From NCBI GenBank assembly GCA_900317555.1, contig ONHF01000002.1:96474-160473 (forward strand): a stretch of 64,000 bases of DNA. Direction: 5' to 3'. A model generated the notes under the pieces. The model did not search any database, had not been told where the DNA came from, and was given only the letters and a program-made list of their open reading frames with translations. Positions 6,350-20,940 of the stretch are shown here, piece after piece (position 1 is the first letter of the stretch; each line of letters starts with the position of its first letter). Source of the stretch: an uncultured Lachnospiraceae bacterium. GTDB taxonomy: Bacteria > Bacillota > Clostridia > Lachnospirales > Lachnospiraceae. A program made the translations under genes and the position numbers.

Positions 6350-7051
6350 ATGAAAATGATGCCTTTATTAAAGGGCAGCTACGGTTTCCGCCCTTTCCCT
6401 GATTCAGGTCAAAACAATCCGCTCCCCGCGGTTTCCGCGGACAACCGCCGCGCGTTTCTTCTACGCGGCCGCGGCACTGCGTTTCTCCGGCGTGAGGGCA
6501 GCTCCGCGTTTCTTCTATGCGGCAGCGGCCACGCGTTTGCCACGACCGGAGATTTTCAAAACGACGCAAGGAATCACTGCGCCGCGACGACGGTGCTGAA
6601 CCTTCTGCTGCTCTCGGGGGCCGCGGGAGTGCCGCAGCCCGGCACTGCCGCGGCGCGGGCTTTGTTCCTGCGCGTTCACAGATATATCGGGAACGGGCCG
6701 GTCTTCCGGCTGGCGCCAAAAGCCACGCGCCTGTTCCGCGCGGAACAGATACCGCTGACTGCAGAAGCAGTCAGCCTGCGACAGATCCGAAGTTCTTCGG
6801 GGAGCGCCGGAATCGCGGCGTTCATCGCAGGAGAACTTCGCCGGGGCAATTACTGCGCGGTCATGGTCGAAGCCGCGGTCTTTGCCTGGCACTGGGTGCT
6901 TGTAACCGGATACAAGGCCGCAGAAAACGGCGGTACCGTTCTTCTTGTCGAAGACAACTGGCACCGCCGCGGCATGCAGGAATATGTTCCGGACAACGGG
7001 AGCATTGTCCGGGGAATTTGTGTTTTTCATCCTCTGATGCCGGATAAATAA
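6350..7051 (+). CDS. Papain-like (peptidase C39-like) protein of unknown role
   Basis: A 233-aa protein without signal peptide. From residue 70 it resembles the C39-like cysteine peptidase fold: FQNDARNHCAATTVLN carries the nucleophile-like Cys77 preceded by the family's Gln70, AWHWVLVTGY carries His181, and LVEDNW gives Asp202/Asn203. So the Gln-Cys-His-Asp set appears intact. Residues 34-63 contain a near-duplicate, AFLLRGRGTAF and AFLLCGSGHAF, from a 34-bp DNA repeat (6451-6484 and 6505-6538, 5 mismatches). The start is uncertain among the ATGs at 6350, 6356 and 6359, and no clear ribosome-binding site is seen. It is divergent from ogl and convergent with the Nudix gene, overlapping that gene's 3' end by about 25 bp. 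Substrate unknown; it may be a self-cleaving or peptide-processing enzyme. Confidence 0.7.
   Translation: MKMMPLLKGSYGFRPFPDSGQNNPLPAVSADNRRAFLLRGRGTAFLRREGSSAFLLCGSGHAFATTGDFQNDARNHCAATTVLNLLLLSGAAGVPQPGTAAARALFLRVHRYIGNGPVFRLAPKATRLFRAEQIPLTAEAVSLRQIRSSSGSAGIAAFIAGELRRGNYCAVMVEAAVFAWHWVLVTGYKAAENGGTVLLVEDNWHRRGMQEYVPDNGSIVRGICVFHPLMPDK
6451..6538 (+). repeat. 34-bp direct duplication inside the C39-like gene
   Basis: Copies 6451-6484 and 6505-6538 differ at five positions and are offset by 54 bp, so the duplication keeps the reading frame. Confidence 0.7.
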
Positions 7052-12252: not shown

Positions 12253-13041
12253 TCACCCAAGCGCCATTCTGTCACTAACTTCGGCGCCCGCCTCCTCAAA
12301 CCTCGCGAGAAGATCCGCAACATGTAGTTTCTTCTTCTCCTCGCCGCTGACATCATAGATAATATGCCCGTTGCTCATCATAATCAGGCGATTGCCGTGC
12401 GCAATCGCGTCCCGCATGTTATGAGTGACCATTAGCGTTGTCAGATGGTTGTCATTGACAATGCGGTCGGTGGCTGCAAGAACCTTGGCTGCGGTCTTCG
12501 GATCGAGCGCCGCGGTGTGCTCGTCCAGAAGGAGCACCTTCGGCTTCTTCATGGTTGCCATTAAAAGCGTCAGCGCCTGACGCTGGCCGCCCGAAAGAAG
12601 CCCGACCTTTGCTGTCAGACGGTCTTCGAGTCCCAGATCCAAGCTTTTCAAGAGCTCCATGTACTGCTGCCGCTCCTTGTTGGACACACCCCAGCGGAGC
12701 GTCCTCCTCTGTCCGCGTCTGGCAGCCAGAGCCATGTTCTCGTCGATCTGCATGTCGCCGGCCGTCCCGGTCATCGGGTCCTGAAAAACGCGACCCAGGA
12801 ACGGTGCTCTTTTATACTCCGAAAGCCCTGAAACATCGGTTCCGTCTATGATGATCTGCCCGCTGTCGACCGGCCATACGCCCGCGATCGCGTTCATAAT
12901 CGTCGATTTTCCGGCGCCGTTGCCGCCGATGACGGTCACGAAATCGCCGTCCTGCAGGGTCAGACTGACATTTTCCAGTGCTTTCTTTTCGTTGATGGTT
13001 CCGGGGTTGAATGTCTTGGAGATATTTCTGACTTCTAACAT
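12253..13041 (-). CDS. ABC importer ATP-binding protein
   Basis: 262-aa nucleotide-binding subunit of the importer formed with the next two genes. Walker A is GGNGAGKST, signature LSGGQRQA, Walker B VLLLDEHTAALD, switch VTHNMRDA. The His after Walker B's Glu (DEHTAALD) is usual for this LivF-like branch. The ATG at 13041 shares a base with the permease stop (TGATG), so translation is coupled. The repeat-rich spacer follows. Confidence 0.92.
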   Translation of the reverse strand: MLEVRNISKTFNPGTINEKKALENVSLTLQDGDFVTVIGGNGAGKSTIMNAIAGVWPVDSGQIIIDGTDVSGLSEYKRAPFLGRVFQDPMTGTAGDMQIDENMALAARRGQRRTLRWGVSNKERQQYMELLKSLDLGLEDRLTAKVGLLSGGQRQALTLLMATMKKPKVLLLDEHTAALDPKTAAKVLAATDRIVNDNHLTTLMVTHNMRDAIAHGNRLIMMSNGHIIYDVSGEEKKKLHVADLLARFEEAGAEVSDRMALG

Positions 13042-14009
13042 CACTTCTCCTCCTTCTTCGAAGCAAGTTTCGCGTTGCGTCTTGCCAGTCCGCGGAAAGA
13101 GCTGGTCCTGATCTGTTTGAGGTACGGTACCGCGAGGAAAATCGCGACCACGATCGCCGTAAGCAGTTTCATGTCATCGGCCGGGAACTTCAGCCAGAGG
13201 ACAAAGACATAGACGAAATAATACACGATCGCGCCGATGACCGTAAACGCGAGGCGCAAAACAAACCCGAGCCGCTTCCCCAGAATCGCCTCGGCGAGCA
13301 CTTCGCCGATGATGACCGCGGCAAGACCGATGACGATCGAGCCCTGCCCCATCTTGACGTCCGCAAAGCCCTGATACTCTGTCAGGATACCGCCCGAAAG
13401 TGCGATCAGACCGTTGCTGACCGAAAGCGCAATGACTTTCATCAGATTCGTGTTGATGCCCTGCGCGCGGGACATGTTCTGATTGATGCCGGTCGCGCGG
13501 ATCGCGCTGCCGATCTCCGTGCCGAGGAACCAGTAAATAACGCCGACGATGACAACGTCAACAATCAGTGTCAGTGCAATTGTCTGGCCAAGATAGCGGA
13601 TATTTGAAGTGAAATGAACCGTCACCTGCCCTGCGGGGACTGCCTGGTTGGCTTTTCCCATGATGTTCAGGTTGATCGAGTACAGAGAAATCTGCGTCAG
13701 AATTCCGGCAAGGATATCCGGAATACCGAGGACCGTGTGCAGAATTCCCGTGACAAGTCCCGCGAGAAGTCCGCATAAAAACGAGATAAGCAGCACGGCT
13801 TCGGGACTCCAGCCTGCAAGAATCAGCATGACCGCGGTAGCGCCGCCGAGAGCGAAAGATCCGTCGCAGGTCATATCCGCGAAATTCAGAATACGGAATG
13901 TCAGATAAACGCCAAGTGCCATGATGCCCCAGATCAGGCCTTGCGCGAGACCGCCGGGCGCGGCGTTCCAGAGCGCCTGCGGGTTCAGGGATGCAAAATA
14001 CGCTGCCAT
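13041..14009 (-). CDS. ABC importer permease (LivH/TrpY-like)
   Basis: 322-aa membrane subunit with about 8-9 helices, containing the branched-chain-type permease pattern (RATGINQNMSRAQGINTN followed by alternating hydrophobic segments). The ATG at 14009 follows AAGGAG; the upstream in-frame extension to 14093 runs through the terminator at 14054-14083 and is rejected. It is paired with a PF04392-type binding protein and a LivF-like ATPase. This gene set is annotated as tryptophan/tyrosine or unknown-substrate importers in Firmicutes. Confidence 0.9.
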   Translation of the reverse strand: MAAYFASLNPQALWNAAPGGLAQGLIWGIMALGVYLTFRILNFADMTCDGSFALGGATAVMLILAGWSPEAVLLISFLCGLLAGLVTGILHTVLGIPDILAGILTQISLYSINLNIMGKANQAVPAGQVTVHFTSNIRYLGQTIALTLIVDVVIVGVIYWFLGTEIGSAIRATGINQNMSRAQGINTNLMKVIALSVSNGLIALSGGILTEYQGFADVKMGQGSIVIGLAAVIIGEVLAEAILGKRLGFVLRLAFTVIGAIVYYFVYVFVLWLKFPADDMKLLTAIVVAIFLAVPYLKQIRTSSFRGLARRNAKLASKKEEK

Positions 14010-14053
14010 GAAATTCTCCTTACTGTTCGTAATACCACTTCGCTGCTGATAAG

Positions 14054-14083
14054 AAAAACAGCGCAGGCACCAGACCTGCGCTG
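14054..14083 (-). terminator. Intra-operon terminator after the binding-protein gene
   Basis: A perfect 9-bp stem CAGCGCAGG/CCTGCGCTG with a 7-nt loop, followed on the minus strand by TTTTT. It lies between the binding-protein gene and the permease, so it should reduce transporter expression relative to the lipoprotein. Confidence 0.85.
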
Positions 14084-14177
14084 CCGTTACCATTATATGC
14101 TACTTCCTGCTGTTCGAACCATAAAAACTTTGCGGCTTTCTGACCGGAATCCTGTCCCGGAATGTGTTCCGCCTGAA

Positions 14178-15224
14178 TTACTTTTCAATTGCGACATAGT
14201 CGGAAGGAATCGTGAATCCGATCGCGTCCGCATATTCCTTGTTGTACTTCTTGGTTGTGGTCTTCGCGTATCCGATAGGCATTGTCGAAACATCCGCGCC
14301 GTTTGCGAGAATATCGATTGCCTGCTCGCCTGCCGCCTTTCCGATATCGTAGTAGTCAATCGAAAGTGTGGCAAGGCCGCCGTTGGAGCACATGTTCTCC
14401 TCGCCGCAGATGATCGGCAGCTTCGCGGGTTCCGTGATGTTTTTAATGATCGTCATGTTCGATGCCGCCGTGTTGTCGGTCGGAATGTACATGACATCAC
14501 ACTCGGAAACCGCGGACTGTACAACGGACTGCAGATCGTTGGAATCCGCAAACGTGTATTCCTGATAAGCGATCTTGTCGGCGTCCAGATACCCTTCGAT
14601 TTTTTCCGCCTGGAACTTGGAGTTGGCTTCCGCGGAGCAGTACAGAATCGCGACCTTCTTTGCGTCCGGAACCAGTTCCTTGATCATCGCTTCCTGCTGG
14701 TCAAGCGGCGCGAGGTCGGATGTGCCGGAAACGTTCATGCCGGTTGTGCCGGAGAAATCTTTCAGATTCAGCGCTGTGCCGTAATCTGTAATGGATGTTC
14801 CGAGAATCGGGATATCGGTTGTCGCGGCAACCGCTGCCTGCAGTGCCGGCGTCGCGTTCGCGAGGATCAGATCGTACTGGTTCGAAACAAAGCCGTTGAC
14901 AATCGTCGCGCATGTTGCGGAATCGCCCTGCGCATTCTGGTAGTCAATCGTCACATTGTCGCCGAACTTATCCTTGAGAGCATCCTCAAAGCCCTTTGTC
15001 GCCGCGTCAAGCGCATCGTGCTGGACGAGCTGGCAGATGCCGACCTTGTATGTTTTGCCGGAATTATCTGCTGCCTGTGTCGCTGCGGACGAAGGTGCCT
15101 CTGTCGCAGCCGCAGCTGCCTCCGCTTTCGTCGCTGCTGTATCCGCCGGCTTGCCGGAACTGCCGCATGCTGTCATGGCAAGCATTGCGCCGGCCAGTGC
15201 GAGTGCCATCATTTTCTTTTTCAT
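14178..15224 (-). CDS. ABC importer substrate-binding lipoprotein (ABC_sub_bind family)
   Basis: 348-aa extracytoplasmic binding protein. The signal peptide ends in a lipobox (AMTACGSS, Cys about 21), followed by an Ala/Thr-rich tether (~25-55). The folded domain begins KTYKVGICQLVQHDALD and shows the DxVxPTxN-like hinge text of PF04392 proteins (DVMYIPTDNTAASN). The ATG at 15224 follows GGGAGGA. First gene of the operon, with promoter at 15372-15400 and a terminator after it. Family members bind aromatic amino acids or other small ligands; the ligand here is unknown. Confidence 0.9.
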   Translation of the reverse strand: MKKKMMALALAGAMLAMTACGSSGKPADTAATKAEAAAAATEAPSSAATQAADNSGKTYKVGICQLVQHDALDAATKGFEDALKDKFGDNVTIDYQNAQGDSATCATIVNGFVSNQYDLILANATPALQAAVAATTDIPILGTSITDYGTALNLKDFSGTTGMNVSGTSDLAPLDQQEAMIKELVPDAKKVAILYCSAEANSKFQAEKIEGYLDADKIAYQEYTFADSNDLQSVVQSAVSECDVMYIPTDNTAASNMTIIKNITEPAKLPIICGEENMCSNGGLATLSIDYYDIGKAAGEQAIDILANGADVSTMPIGYAKTTTKKYNKEYADAIGFTIPSDYVAIEK

Positions 15225-15371
15225 AAACTGCTTCCTCCCTGCATCGGAAAACAGAAAAATCCGCCCCAAAACCGTCAAATCCGGGAATCTGTTGTTTGAC
15301 TTCTCTGTCTTCTGTTTATACATTGTTCTATGACCGCCGGAATCCGGCCGTCGGAAGAACTGATTTATTAC

Positions 15372-15400
15372 ATTAAAGCGCAAACGCGTTGGCGTGTCAA
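15372..15400 (-). promoter_or_regulatory. Promoter of the ABC importer operon, with near-palindromic spacer
   Basis: Minus strand: TTGACA (15400-15395), 17 nt, TTTAAT (15377-15372). The spacer contains a near-palindrome centred on AACGCGTT, of LacI-operator style. The leader to the start codon is about 140 nt and contains a GGCCGGATTCCGGC hairpin. Confidence 0.65.
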
Positions 15401-15453: not shown

Positions 15454-16710
15454 ATGAGCGTAACCGAAATCTTCGGTAAAACAGTCATAAAAGCAAACAA
15501 AAACCACCCCGCACTCTCCCGCGGCATTCTGCGGGCAGGCTGGGAGGCGGAGGATCTCGTATTCCGCTTTCATCCGCACAAAGAGTCTTTCCCCGCGGAT
15601 CAGTATCTCGCGCGGCTGATGATGGATACGATGCTGGCGCCGCTTCGAACTCCCGACCAGTCCGTGATCTGCAGTATCTTCACGCCGTGCGAGCTTGTGC
15701 AGGAAGCACAGCTCCACCCTTACAACGTGGAAGCCTTTTCCAGCTACATCTCAGCCTCGTACGCCGAGAGCGCCTGCGTGCAGAAGGCCGAGGAAACCGG
15801 CATTTCCGATACGCTCTGCAGCTACCATAAAACATTTCTGGGCGCCGCGGAAAACGGTCTGATGCCAAGGCCCCGCTGCATTGTATATACCAATGTAACG
15901 TGCGACGCGAATCTTCTGACCTTCTCCCGGCTCGCGCGCCTTTTTGATGTGCCGGAATTCTTCGTGCAGGTGCCTTCCGACCCTTCGGAAGACGCTGTCG
16001 CCTATGTGCGGGACGAACTACTCTCATTGAAAAACTTTCTGCAGGACGTAACCGGCCGCAGCATTGATGACAACGCGTTAAAAGCCCGCGTCGAACGCTC
16101 GAAGAGAACGCTCTCTTCTTTTGAAGCCTACCAGAGTGCGCGGGCGGACCGCTATGTTCCGTCCGATCTTGTCACGCCACTTTACAGCGCGATGACTGCG
16201 AACATTCTGCTTGGCACGAAGGAAGAAGAGACCTATGTAAACCGCTGCCTTCTGGATCTGCAGAAGGCAGGCTCGAAGAAGGGAAAACATATCTACTGGA
16301 TGCACACGCTCCCGTTCTGGTCATCCGCGGTCAAGAAATATTTCCTGTTCAATGAGAACGCGCAGATTGTCGGCGACGAGCTGTCACAGGTCTGCTCGTC
16401 GGATTTTGACGCTGAAGATCCCTACCGGGGTATGGCGCAGCGCCTTGTTTATAACGCGCTGAACGGTCCCGCGGACCGCAGAATTGAAGCCGGCATTCAA
16501 CACGCGAAGCAGTGCGGTGCCGACGGCGTAATCTGGTTCAACCACTGGGGATGCAAGCACACGCTCGGCATGGCACAGCTCGCAAAGGCCGGCTTTGAAG
16601 ACGCGGGACTTCCGACGCTCCTTTTAGACGGCGACGGGTGCGACCGCGCGCACGGCGGCGAAGGCCAGACGCTGACGCGGATCGGCGCGTTCCTTGAAAA
16701 TCTGGTCTGA
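15454..16710 (+). CDS. 2-hydroxyacyl-CoA dehydratase family subunit
   Basis: 418-aa protein of the 2-hydroxyglutaryl-CoA dehydratase D-component family (HgdA/HgdB, BcrB/C). These radical enzymes use a [4Fe-4S] cluster and a dedicated activator to dehydrate 2-hydroxyacyl-CoA. The C-terminal part is most typical: GADGVIWFNHWGCKHTLGMA, then LLLDGDGCDR. Cys residues at TPCEL and WGCKH could serve the cluster. The ATG at 15454 follows AGGAGG with 8 nt spacing; the open frame back to 15394 has no such site. A partner subunit-activator fusion begins 163 nt downstream. The substrate is not predictable from sequence. Confidence 0.88.
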   Translation: MSVTEIFGKTVIKANKNHPALSRGILRAGWEAEDLVFRFHPHKESFPADQYLARLMMDTMLAPLRTPDQSVICSIFTPCELVQEAQLHPYNVEAFSSYISASYAESACVQKAEETGISDTLCSYHKTFLGAAENGLMPRPRCIVYTNVTCDANLLTFSRLARLFDVPEFFVQVPSDPSEDAVAYVRDELLSLKNFLQDVTGRSIDDNALKARVERSKRTLSSFEAYQSARADRYVPSDLVTPLYSAMTANILLGTKEEETYVNRCLLDLQKAGSKKGKHIYWMHTLPFWSSAVKKYFLFNENAQIVGDELSQVCSSDFDAEDPYRGMAQRLVYNALNGPADRRIEAGIQHAKQCGADGVIWFNHWGCKHTLGMAQLAKAGFEDAGLPTLLLDGDGCDRAHGGEGQTLTRIGAFLENLV

Positions 16711-16860
16711 CACGGCCGGAGCGTCCCTTGCAAATCTGGTCTGACGTGGCCGGAGTGCCCCTTGCAAATCTGGTCTGACGCGGACGGCGGTCCCTTGAAA
16801 ATCCGTTCCGGCCGGATCGGCGCATTCCTTGAGAACCCGGTTCGATCCGGATCGAACTCC
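16692..16860 (+). repeat. Degenerate 34-bp tandem array spanning the dehydratase stop codon
   Basis: Units begin at CCTTG at 16692, 16726, 16760, 16793 and 16827 (periods 34, 34, 33, 34). The first unit encodes the last residues (FLENLV) and TGA stop of the upstream gene. Units 2 and 3 repeat the same AAATCTGGTCTGA text, and units 4 and 5 are more diverged. The array ends right before the GAAAGGA ribosome-binding site of the next gene. Confidence 0.88.
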
Positions 16861-16873
16861 GAAAGGATATTTT

Positions 16874-18571
16874 ATGGCACATACTATTCATTACATCTGC
16901 AAATACACACCGCTCGAACTTTTCGCCGCAATGGGCGCCGAATGCGTCTATGCCAATCACATGCCGGACGGCTTCGGCATTTCCGAAGCCGTGATCGGCT
17001 CCAACATCTGCGGCTTCGGAAAATCTCTGATTGATCTCGTCAGCTCCGGCGGCGTGCATGAACTGATTATGACAAGCTGCTGCGACACGATCCGCAGCGT
17101 ATACGACAACCTGCAAAAGAGCGGGAAGCCGGACTTCCTGTTCTATCTCGATATCCCGCATGCGGAGTCCGGTTGCACGAAAACGCAGCTTTCTTACCAG
17201 TTAAAACAACTGGTCCGCGCATATTCAGCGTACAGCGGGAATTGTTTTGACCGGAATAAATTTATGGAGGCGATGAAGCTCTCGCACGCGCAGCAGGTCC
17301 GGCCGAATTCTCCGTACATCAGTATTCTCGGCGGACGCGCCGGGATCGAGTTGCACAAAGAAGCTTTGAAAGAGATGCCGCTGCCCGTGCACAACGACAC
17401 CTGCGTCGCCGGAAGAAGCGTCGGGGAGAGCCTGCCCGATCCGTCGCTGTCCTTTGACGGGCTGATGGACTGGTATGCCGGTGAACTGCTGTCGCAGCTG
17501 CCCTGCATGCGGATGATTGACCGAGAAGGTCGAAAGAGGCTCTACAATGACCCGAATCTGCGGGGTATCATATATCATACAATCCGGTTCTGTGATTTCT
17601 ACAATTTCGAATACAGCGAAATTAAAAGCCACGTCGATGTGCCGATGCTGAAAATCGAAACCGATTACACAACCGGCTCTTCGGGGCAGCTTCTGACAAG
17701 GCTGCAGGCTTTTGCCGAGGAGATTCGCAGCGCCTATTCGGACACGCCGCAGATTTTCAAAGGAAACAGATCGGGAGGATCAGCAATGAACAAACAGAAT
17801 TTCACCTATGTGGCAGGCATTGATTCGGGCTCCGCGAGCACGGATGTCGTGATTCTGGATAAGGATAGAAATTATGTCGCAGGTATCGTTCTGCCGACCG
17901 GCGCCGGTGCGGTCATCAGCGCGGAAAAAGCGCTCGAAGCGGCGCTGCAGGAGGCCGGCCTTTCGCGATCGGACATCGGCCGCGTCGTGACAACCGGATA
18001 CGGCCGGACATCGATCGGGAATTCCGACCGCAGTATCACAGAGATCACCTGCCACGCGCGAGGCGCGCATTTTCTCGATCCGTCTGTCCGCACGGTCATT
18101 GATATCGGCGGGCAGGACAGCAAGGTTATAACACTGGACAGCACGGGAAAAGTTACGAATTTCGTAATGAATGACAAGTGCGCGGCCGGAACCGGCAGGT
18201 TCCTTGACATGATGGCGCGCACGATGGAAATGACGCTGGATGATATGAGCCTTCGCGGGCTGACTTATAAAGAAGACATTACGATCTCGAGCACCTGCAC
18301 GGTGTTCGCGGAGTCGGAGGTTGTCTCTCTGATCGCGGAAAACAAAGACGTCGACGACATCGTCCACGGTCTGGACAAATCTGTCGCCGCAAAAACAGCA
18401 ACGCTTGTAGCAAGGGCCGGCGGCAGCGGTCCGTTCATGATGACCGGCGGCGTCTCGAAGAACAAAGGGCTGGTCAAGGCTCTGTCCGAAAAGCTCGGAC
18501 AGAAGCTGATCATCTCGGACAAGGCGCAGCTTTGCGGCGCGCTCGGCGCGGCGCTGTACGCGCTGGACTAA
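16874..18571 (+). CDS. Fusion: 2-hydroxyacyl-CoA dehydratase subunit + BadF/HgdC activator ATPase
   Basis: 565-aa fusion. Residues 1-~300 are a dehydratase D-component subunit (YTPLELFAAMG near the start, TSCCDT as a likely cluster-ligand region). Residues 305-565 are a complete activator of the BadF/BadG/HgdC family, which uses ATP to inject an electron into the dehydratase. It shows GIDSGSASTD (nucleotide-binding start), DIGGQDSK, and Cys436 (NDKCAAGTG) and Cys475 (SSTCTVF), 39 residues apart like Cys127/Cys166 of HgdC, which bridge the dimer's [4Fe-4S] cluster. The ATG at 16874 has GAAAGGA upstream. At the junction an in-frame ATG (17786, Met305) is preceded by a full GGGAGG, so a free activator may also be made. 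Confidence 0.9.
   Translation: MAHTIHYICKYTPLELFAAMGAECVYANHMPDGFGISEAVIGSNICGFGKSLIDLVSSGGVHELIMTSCCDTIRSVYDNLQKSGKPDFLFYLDIPHAESGCTKTQLSYQLKQLVRAYSAYSGNCFDRNKFMEAMKLSHAQQVRPNSPYISILGGRAGIELHKEALKEMPLPVHNDTCVAGRSVGESLPDPSLSFDGLMDWYAGELLSQLPCMRMIDREGRKRLYNDPNLRGIIYHTIRFCDFYNFEYSEIKSHVDVPMLKIETDYTTGSSGQLLTRLQAFAEEIRSAYSDTPQIFKGNRSGGSAMNKQNFTYVAGIDSGSASTDVVILDKDRNYVAGIVLPTGAGAVISAEKALEAALQEAGLSRSDIGRVVTTGYGRTSIGNSDRSITEITCHARGAHFLDPSVRTVIDIGGQDSKVITLDSTGKVTNFVMNDKCAAGTGRFLDMMARTMEMTLDDMSLRGLTYKEDITISSTCTVFAESEVVSLIAENKDVDDIVHGLDKSVAAKTATLVARAGGSGPFMMTGGVSKNKGLVKALSEKLGQKLIISDKAQLCGALGAALYALD
17773..17788 (+). promoter_or_regulatory. Internal ribosome-binding site and start inside the fusion gene
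   Basis: GGGAGG (17773-17778) lies 7 nt before the in-frame ATG at 17786, exactly at the domain boundary. It would produce a 261-aa stand-alone activator, the usual length of HgdC-type proteins. Confidence 0.75.
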
Positions 18572-18706: not shown

Positions 18707-19909
18707 TTACTGCGGCGGCGCGCCGCGATGAATCGCGCCGCCGCCGAACTTTCTGCGGATTTCGTCTACGGCGGCATCCGCTTTCTTCTCTTTCTCTCTT
18801 TGATCATCTCCGAAAAGACTCAGCTGCACGGCCTGCTCTTTTGTAACATCAGTCAGCGATATGCCGATCAGGCGAAGCGGTGTCCTGCCGTCCCAGAGCT
18901 CGTCGAACAGCGCAACTGCCGCTCCGGTGATCTCGGCGGTAATATCGCTCGCCTGCGAAAGCTTTTTCTGATGAGACCTGTTGGTCCGGTTGGAAAAAGA
19001 GCCCGAACGGATCTTTACGCCAACGCACTGCGTGCGGAACCCGTCCCTGCGCATCCTTGAAGCCGCGGTGTCCGCAAGCTCCCGCAAAATCGCGTGCAGC
19101 TTTTCCCTGTCCGCAAGGTCCTCCTCGGTTGTTGTGGAAGCGCTGTATCCCTTCGCTTCTTCCGGATGATCCAGTACCTTTGAAGGATCAATTCCGTTTG
19201 CGAAATCGTGGTAGAGCTGCGCTGTTTTGACGCCAAGAAGGGAGGAAAGAGAGGCCATATCGCAGGCCGCGAGATCGCCGATCGTATAAATGCCCGCTTT
19301 CCGCAGCCTGTCTGCCGAATGTCCGCCGACCAGAAACAGCTTCCCCACCGGCATCGGCCAGAGCTTGCGCGGGATCTCGTCTTCAAAGAGCGTATGCGTT
19401 TTGTCGGGCTTTTCCATGTCGCTCGCCATCTTGGCAAGCAGCTTATTGTGCGCGATACCGACATTGACCGTAAACCCAAGCTCGGTCCGGACGCGCTCCC
19501 GGATCGCTGCTGCCGCGCGCAGCGGGTCCGGCCAGAGCTTCCCCATGCCGGTCATGTCAAGATAACATTCATCGATCGAGGCCTGCTCGAGCACCGGCGT
19601 AAAATCTCTGCAGACCGCGATAAAGCGCCGCGAGCACTCTTTATACCATGCCCTGTCCGGCGGCGCGACAACAAGTTCCGGGCATTTCTGCATCGCCATC
19701 GAAGACGCCTCTCCGGTATGGATGCCGAGTTTCGCGGCAGGAATCGACTTTGCGGCGACGATGCTCGTACGGAGCCCCGGATCTCCGCTGATAATCGCGG
19801 GGACATTCCGCAGATCACTCTTCCCTTCCCGCAGACGCTTTACCGACGTCCACGAAAGAAACGCGCTGTTTACATCCACATGGAAAATCAGCCGCCGTTC
19901 CTCTTCCAT
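18707..19909 (-). CDS. dinB: DNA polymerase IV (Y-family)
   Basis: 400-aa translesion polymerase. The palm motifs are visible: HVDVNSAFLSW at the start (first catalytic Asp), then SIDECYLDMTG with the Asp-Glu pair. C-terminal little-finger region follows TTEEDLADREKL. I chose the ATG at 19909 because GAGG lies 6 nt upstream, just inside the end of the threonine aldolase gene; the frame is open from a GTG at 19921. The gene starts 8 nt downstream of the aldolase stop, so the two are probably cotranscribed. Confidence 0.93.
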   Translation of the reverse strand: MEEERRLIFHVDVNSAFLSWTSVKRLREGKSDLRNVPAIISGDPGLRTSIVAAKSIPAAKLGIHTGEASSMAMQKCPELVVAPPDRAWYKECSRRFIAVCRDFTPVLEQASIDECYLDMTGMGKLWPDPLRAAAAIRERVRTELGFTVNVGIAHNKLLAKMASDMEKPDKTHTLFEDEIPRKLWPMPVGKLFLVGGHSADRLRKAGIYTIGDLAACDMASLSSLLGVKTAQLYHDFANGIDPSKVLDHPEEAKGYSASTTTEEDLADREKLHAILRELADTAASRMRRDGFRTQCVGVKIRSGSFSNRTNRSHQKKLSQASDITAEITGAAVALFDELWDGRTPLRLIGISLTDVTKEQAVQLSLFGDDQREKEKKADAAVDEIRRKFGGGAIHRGAPPQ

Positions 19910-19917
19910 CACACGCC

Positions 19918-20940
19918 TCACAAAAGATCCAGCAGCGCGTCCACATCTTCTTCGCGGGTCGCCCAGCTCGTCGCGAGCCGGATTGCCGTTCTGTTCTCAT
20001 CGACCGGCTCCCATTCGCTGAAAATGACCTTTTCCGCGAGCGCGCGCATCTGATGATTCTGCAAAACAACAAACTGCTGATTCGTCGGCGACTCCAGAAG
20101 CAGCTGATAGCCCTTCCTGCGCAGTCCTTCCCGCAGCTTCATCGCAAGATCCACCGCGTGTCTGCTGATCTGCAGATACAGGTCGTCCGTAAGAAGCGTG
20201 TCAAACTGCAGGCCCAGAAGCCATCCTTTGGCAAGCAGGCCGCCATGCTGTTTGACCTGCGTCATGAAGTGCGGCGGCATATTTTTCTTCGTAAAAACAA
20301 CCGCTTCGCCAAACAATGCCCCCACCTTCGTTCCGCCGATATAAAAGACGTCCGAAAGCGCTGCGATGTCCCGCATAGTCAGCTCTTTGGACGCAGCGAG
20401 CCCGTAGCCGAGGCGTGCGCCGTCAATAAACAGCGGAATACCGTACTCGCGGCAGATGCCGGAGACCGCGTTCAGCTCCTGCGCGCTGTACAGCGTGCCA
20501 TACTCGGTCGGGTAGGAAATATAGACCATTCCCGGAAAAACCATGTGCTCACGGTCCGGATTCTCCCGGAATGCTTTAAGGAAAGAACGGAGCTCTTCGG
20601 GGTCGATTTTGCCCTGATGCGCGGGCAGCGGCAGTACCTTATGCCCCGAGTATTCAATCGCGCCGGCCTCATGCACATTTACATGTCCGGTAGCCGCGGC
20701 AATGACCCCTTCATACGGACGAAGCATCGTCGAAATCACGATCTGATTCGTCTGTGTACCTCCGCAGAGAAAGAAAATCTCCGCGTCGTCAACGCCGCAG
20801 GCGCGGCGGATCTTTTCCTTCGCGGCAGCGCAGATTTCATCACTTCCGTAGCCTGTCTGCGGCTGCAGATTCATCTTCATCATCCGCTCCAGAATCAGCG
20901 GGTGCGCGCCTTCCATGTAGTCACTTGCAAATGCCAGCAT
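19918..20940 (-). CDS. ltaE: Low-specificity threonine aldolase family protein
   Basis: PLP enzyme of the beta-eliminating lyase fold, 340 aa, cleaving L-threonine or L-allo-threonine to glycine and acetaldehyde. It shows the cofactor-binding FLCGGTQTNQ, the substrate-side FIDGARLGYGLA, and the PLP lysine in YIGGTKVGALFGE. The ATG at 20940 has AGGAG upstream. Related aldolases with other beta-hydroxy amino acid substrates are possible. It is followed closely by dinB, with no metabolic link that I can see. Confidence 0.9.
   Translation of the reverse strand: MLAFASDYMEGAHPLILERMMKMNLQPQTGYGSDEICAAAKEKIRRACGVDDAEIFFLCGGTQTNQIVISTMLRPYEGVIAAATGHVNVHEAGAIEYSGHKVLPLPAHQGKIDPEELRSFLKAFRENPDREHMVFPGMVYISYPTEYGTLYSAQELNAVSGICREYGIPLFIDGARLGYGLAASKELTMRDIAALSDVFYIGGTKVGALFGEAVVFTKKNMPPHFMTQVKQHGGLLAKGWLLGLQFDTLLTDDLYLQISRHAVDLAMKLREGLRRKGYQLLLESPTNQQFVVLQNHQMRALAEKVIFSEWEPVDENRTAIRLATSWATREEDVDALLDLL

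Follow-up and report, generated by a model that had tools for sequence, protein, structure and literature searches.

Within the window, that is, the whole 64,000-nucleotide stretch of DNA analysed, an alpha subunit gene of the HGD-D family (15454–16710, plus strand, 418 aa) is followed on the same strand by a gene in which a beta subunit is joined to an activator (16874–18571). The second gene runs as a single open frame from the ATG at 16874 to the TAA ending at 18571 and encodes 565 residues, as stated in the preliminary description, which had read it as a dehydratase-type subunit fused to its activator; both domains were found by searching. Pfam matched HGD-D in two stretches, the better one covering residues 172–284, and the activator family BcrAD_BadFG over residues 315–563 (E 1e-60). 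The beta domain corresponds to 16874–17761 and the activator domain to 17786–18571, with an approximate interdomain linker at 17762–17806 that differs in length between relatives. AlphaFold2 modelled the fusion as two folded parts (mean pLDDT 79.6, pTM 0.63), with the lowest confidence at residues 298–308 (pLDDT below 50). In the linker, GGGAGG is read directly at 17774–17779 as the predicted Shine-Dalgarno (SD) site of an in-frame ATG at 17786, use of which would give a free activator of 261 aa. The calculated anti-SD duplex was -10.3 kcal/mol at this internal start, compared with -5.7 kcal/mol at the fusion's own start.

The alpha gene, the upstream neighbour of the fusion, encodes a complete HGD-D partner (Pfam 2.4e-59). 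In profile searches, its match to BzdO (1.6e-23) was slightly ahead of that to HadB (3.5e-21), whereas its AlphaFold2 model (pLDDT 85.8) matched the fold of HadB nearest, with MbdO and BzdO also matched; alpha alone is therefore indecisive on the enzyme class. Residues C122, C150 and C367 were Cys in every aligned row that had a letter there (77, 77 and 80 of 80, respectively). The cluster ligands of BzdO are given as Cys95/128/380 in PMC11971306; C122 and C367 aligned with Cys95 and Cys380, and C150 with Cys129, one column off the ligand Cys128 and beside a gap. The three alpha cysteines are expected to hold a [4Fe-4S] cluster. In addition, Asn153 of alpha aligned with the active-site His131 of BzdO and was invariant in the rows with letters (77 of 80).

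The beta domain is short, having about 290 residues compared with 379–422 in the aligned solved relatives. It is without most of the intermediate helical domain (BzdN 156–227), which PMC11971306 describes as part of the CoA channel construction, and CoA binding may therefore differ. The best profile match was to DCCP (2.9e-21), followed by HadC (4.5e-13) and BzdN (4.2e-10), and Foldseek likewise placed DCCP (7yyl_A, 2.1e-13) first for the beta part, with HadC and BzdN close behind. The double-cubane ligands of BzdN are listed as Cys36/73/100/263/293/327 (PMC11971306), and the alignment placed C9, C46, C70, C177, C211 and C240 of beta, the predicted double-cubane ligands here, opposite all six; DCCP also has Cys at these positions, the positions themselves being set by the ligand list of BzdN. 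C177 faces Ala in HadC, the alignment of which begins one residue after C9. These ligand residues were computed directly, and all six, together with C69, were Cys in 95 of 95 beta sequences. Since, according to PMC11971306, the double cubane has been lost in dehydratases, whose second subunit keeps a [4Fe-5S] cluster as its remnant, the presence of the six ligand cysteines would group beta with the reductases. The enzyme is therefore probably not a 2-hydroxyacyl-CoA dehydratase, as the preliminary description had called it, and "dehydratase" is probably the wrong name. Curated models for HadB and HadC scored under their cut-offs (52 versus 750 and 26.8 versus 700 bits), as did those for BzdQ (173 versus 380), BzdO (38.5 versus 449) and BzdN (18 versus 454) and the double-cubane model NF040772 (66.8 bits on beta and 54 on alpha, cut-off 350); by the curated models, and with Asn at the position of BzdO His131, this is not a benzoyl-CoA reductase (BCR) either.

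The activator domain scored 247–250 bits with TIGR00241, above the cut-off of 125. Its relatives include HadI, MbdQ and HgdC, the closest by sequence being HadI (4eht, 2e-71), and Foldseek matched the activator part to 9gai_D and 4eht. Activators of this kind are described in PMC11574389 as homodimers in which each monomer supplies two cysteines; both cluster cysteines were retained in the aligned relatives (94 and 92 of 95 rows, the remainder being gaps). Elsewhere in the window's own genome, the activator was matched only by a frame of 1,432 residues that contains two activator-type stretches (G000:C19; L002, L003).

Within the window's genus, the beta domain was matched in 22 of 62 genomes, and in 13 of these 22, the window's own included, beta and activator lay in one frame. 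Two of the 13 (G006 and G028) have a frame break within the beta domain as well, and in a third (G034) the contig ends within the activator. The other genus matches were weak, and those in G009, G025, G077, G001, G062 and G071 were paralogues with the activator as a separate gene, in a check that left out G010, G018 and the weak G029 matches. A contig-level scan, from which the best 80 of 490 relatives were retained, gave labels that were mostly Lachnospiraceae or Oscillospiraceae, with Peptococcaceae and Coriobacteriaceae among the few others; Blautia, Gemmiger, Flavonifractor and Oribacterium were among the names. Among these best 80, the fusion was present in 79, the exception being L152. 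A deeper sample, 393 genomes taken from the class, gave 66 with a match; leaving the own genome aside, the beta match was strong and long in 13. Of these 13 deep clostridial orthologues, 12 were fused, and the beta domain of one of the 12 (G321) contains a frame break. By direct computation, the fusion is old and common across the class. Because it spans the genus, the named contigs and the deep orthologues, a recent loss of a stop codon, which the preliminary description had offered as an alternative, was rejected, and the genes did not prove to be always separate in relatives, the outcome that the description had named as a refutation. An assembly artefact in one genome was also rejected, the same open fusion occurring in a 96% identical sister and in many other genomes. 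A literature search of titles and abstract openings returned none describing this fusion, which is weak evidence of absence.

Several loci depart from the common arrangement. In L152, a frame break in the linker (about 6940–6970) beside a G run, either an error or real, splits beta from the activator, and the activator, though split off, retains an ATG and a purine-rich site. The genome G289 (L175, 2457–5403) has a reverse arrangement, with beta and alpha in one 730-residue frame and a separate 272-residue activator frame after it. It was also noticed that the frame breaks of G006 (L035, 983–1389) and G321 (L168, 2067–2322) fall at a similar place in mid-beta, at about residues 164–183 of the window protein.

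In the linkers of 87 fused loci, some in-frame start was found in 84, a start preceded by an SD core of 4 or more bases in 77, and an ATG with such an SD in 73, compared with 82%, 27% and 15%, respectively, of 3,878 control windows of equal width in the same frames. The GGGAGG and in-frame ATG that had been pointed out at the junction were therefore confirmed and found to exceed chance. The ATG lay exactly 7 codons upstream of the activator GIDxGS motif in 63 of the 79 fused contig loci. Across these 79 loci, the frequency of the commonest residue was 0.80 at the internal Met and at least 0.87 at each of the following four positions. It was lower on the other side of the Met, with 0.46 and 0.43 for the two immediately preceding residues and 0.61 and 0.58 for the pair upstream of those, which coincides with the SD. 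In the 63 loci with the ATG at -7, positions -15 to -7 were 92–100% purine, though the encoded residues differ.

The genus by itself gave an erratic picture: the SD of the 96% identical sister (G004) is weakened to GGGGGG, the linkers of G078 and G006 are without a start codon, and G072 has none near the activator. From the genus alone, our first conclusion was that the internal start is non-conserved, and this was overturned by the wider sample. Of 86 loci, 81 had a start no more than 14 codons from the activator motif, and in the remaining five (G072 and G078 among them) it was absent or far away. By sequence comparison, most of the main clade has conserved the internal start. Among the 12 deep fused orthologues, an SD-led start within 14 codons was found in only three (L164, L166 and L168), and since the other nine are without it, the start may have been gained after the fusion instead of being retained from a separate activator gene. 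Thus, of the "retained" start proposed originally, conservation holds for the main clade, and its descent from a separate gene is less certain. A search for a separate short activator in the start-less genomes G072, G078 and G006 found only proteins of 1,444–1,609 residues, so the free activator must be dispensable in some genomes. A count of gains and losses on a tree gave five changes under a loose start definition that accepted a TTG at -18 (L163), a GTG at -42 (G021) and an ATG at -68 (L084), and was not taken as evidence.

All 81 loci with a start within 14 codons had an SD duplex of -5 kcal/mol or better, compared with 35% of 1,652 other in-frame ATGs. Upon synonymous recoding of these 81 loci, the mean duplex was -8.1 kcal/mol for the natural sequences versus -6.5 for the recoded ones (mean z -0.81; control ATGs 0.00), with the best candidate taken per locus, which biases the test slightly in favour of the result. 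Taken singly, only 8 of 81 loci reached p≤0.05; at that level the test is weak, and the result is clear only as a pooled shift. The Lys codon four before the ATG, which lies within the SD, was AAG in 44 of 44 cases, where 0.587 was expected from the same genes (P 7e-11); thinned to one junction per cluster (25 clusters), it was AAG in 12 of 12 (P 3e-4), and Lys before Glu elsewhere in the same genes was AAG in 130 of 201. The loci are related by descent, and these P values ignore kinship beyond the thinning. In addition, the SD is not tied to one reading phase: of 82 loci, 48 have it in one phase, 20 in another and 14 in the third. Where the start is not at -7 but between -8 and -13 (17 loci), an SD-like stretch was still there, 8–14 bases upstream in 15 and 17–18 bases in two; two of these 17 (L085 and L154) use GTG as the start. 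The recoding shift, the AAG bias, and the three phases with moved starts are therefore signs that a ribosome-binding site, and not the peptide alone, is under selection.

Because the start is conserved in the main clade, the SD occurs in three phases and its Lys codon is AAG in 44 of 44 cases, the proposal that one message would give both the fusion and the free activator is well supported, and appears stronger than a reading of one sequence could tell. Such a start is missing from three genus species and from nine of the 12 deep orthologues. It is probable, in our estimate about 0.6 for the explanation as a whole, that the alpha and fusion genes form a two-gene operon (15454–18571), the products of which would be an ATP-driven low-potential [Fe-S] reductase of the BCR/double-cubane family, with a free activator also made. 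Alpha would carry a [4Fe-4S] cluster at the substrate site and beta an [8Fe-9S] double cubane as an electron store, and the activator tethered to beta would hydrolyse ATP and pass electrons in. The ATG at 17786 would also be used, giving the free activator from the same message, and the complex would consist of alpha, beta-activator and free activator, so that a single catalytic pair is served by a single activator dimer, the arrangement of class I BCR. Because activators act as dimers around a shared cluster, such a mixed complex seems likely: a lone fused activator per alpha-beta pair would require a partner, which could be either a second fusion chain or the separate product of the internal start. 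The catalytic dimer of class I BCR is described as being fed, at one ATP per electron, by an ATP-binding dimer that a [4Fe-4S] cluster bridges (PMC11971306), and for dehydratases at least 1,000 turnovers per ATP are reported (PMC8473912); a tethered activator would suit the former regime better than the latter, catalytic one. As a more specific and tentative proposal, possible but short of probable, widespread gut and rumen clostridial double-cubane reductases would form their activator dimer by pairing a tethered activator with a free one translated from the internal start, so that one alpha-beta unit per dimer is served by a single activator gene.

The same loci could also make the fusion only, assembled as (alpha beta-activator)2 so that two tethered activators form the dimer; the ATG and SD in the purine-rich linker would then be little-used remnants of a former activator gene. 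Some species have no internal start and yielded no separate short activator, most deep orthologues (9 of 12) are without the start as well, and a Lys/Glu/Gly-rich linker by itself predicts a duplex of -6.5 kcal/mol; against it stand the sharp step in conservation at the Met, the invariant AAG codon in the SD (44 of 44), an SD that occurs in three phases and is kept where the start has moved, and the ATG with SD at 73 of the 87 loci, where control windows give 15%, and we regard this possibility as doubtful. A genuine 2-hydroxyacyl-CoA dehydratase whose activator is fused to it, whether or not a free activator is also made, would fit the HGD-D family membership of both subunits and an alpha subunit with a fold nearest to HadB and a HadB profile score that nearly equals that of BzdO. 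The six double-cubane cysteines in beta, with C177 opposite Ala in HadC, and the low scores with the HadB and HadC curated models (52 and 27 bits versus 750 and 700) speak against it, as does the turnover per ATP reported in PMC8473912, at which a 1:1 tether would be needless, and it seems unlikely. Finally, the complete SD and start at the junction, and the split of L152 by a linker frame break, are what a recent stop loss or an assembly error in one genome could produce, but this explanation is extremely improbable, since an open fusion of this kind is carried by 79 of 80 contigs, 13 genus species and 12 of 13 deep orthologues, and also by the 96% identical sister.

The predicted reductase shares with class I BCR (BzdNOPQ; MbdONPQ, PDB 9gai/9gba) a heterodimeric catalytic pair and an ATP-driven activator dimer, Cys in beta at all six BzdN ligand positions and an alpha that resembles BzdO. 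It differs in that the activator is fused to beta and is encoded by one gene here, versus two diverged genes in BCR, in its shorter beta, in the Asn at the place of BzdO His131, and in scoring below the curated models. DCCP/DCCP-R (6eno, 7yyl) is the best profile match of beta and has Cys at the same six positions, whereas DCCP is a homodimer with a double cubane per subunit and a separate reductase protein, and here there is a distinct alpha with three invariant cysteines. The HadBC and HgdAB dehydratases (activators HadI and HgdC) belong to the same superfamily, and the activator is closest to HadI; however, their activator is separate and their second subunit has a single [4Fe-5S] cluster, whereas six putative double-cubane cysteines are found here. 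Proteins of 1,400–1,600 aa with two activator-type stretches also carry activator-type domains within a longer chain, but they are far longer, have two stretches per frame and are about 29% identical in the activator. With respect to internal starts, CcmM (PMC11005335), SctQ/HrcQ (PMC8553256) and Cas11/Cas11b (PMC11899642) are described as genes with two in-frame products in one assembly. A start and SD conserved beyond coding need, as looked for in such genes, were found in the main clade, unlike in nine of the 12 deep orthologues. None of CcmM, HrcQ and Cas11 is a redox activator, whereas the free domain predicted here would be half of an electron-delivering dimer.

A gene joining beta to its activator occurs in many gut and rumen bacteria. 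If these are double-cubane reductases, common gut bacteria hold a capacity for ATP-driven reduction at very low potential, and the family name would misdirect work on them. An internal start conserved at the codon level, for which the signal was computed directly, would, if true, be a clear case of one gene giving a tethered and a free redox activator, and a dual-product gene would make it possible to test directly how such complexes fix their activator-to-enzyme ratio.

As a guide to the substrate, a shared gene neighbourhood was sought in the 80 contigs, where only alpha (67 loci) and the fusion (66 loci) were widely common; the next clusters were a reverse-strand one in 21 loci, which is a shadow frame overlapping the fusion, and one in 11 loci. 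The genes that flank alpha and the fusion in the window (12253–15383 and 18707–19921, both on the minus strand), as read from their translations without a search, look like an ABC uptake system (ATPase, permease and binding protein) and a DinB-like polymerase, and the neighbours differ in relatives. It was also noticed that a 34-base tandem array of about 4–5 copies (16672–16845, 78–83% matches) spans the last codons of alpha and the gap before the fusion gene. The array resembles copies of the 3′ end of alpha itself, and the gap between alpha and the fusion is shorter in the sister genome than in the window.
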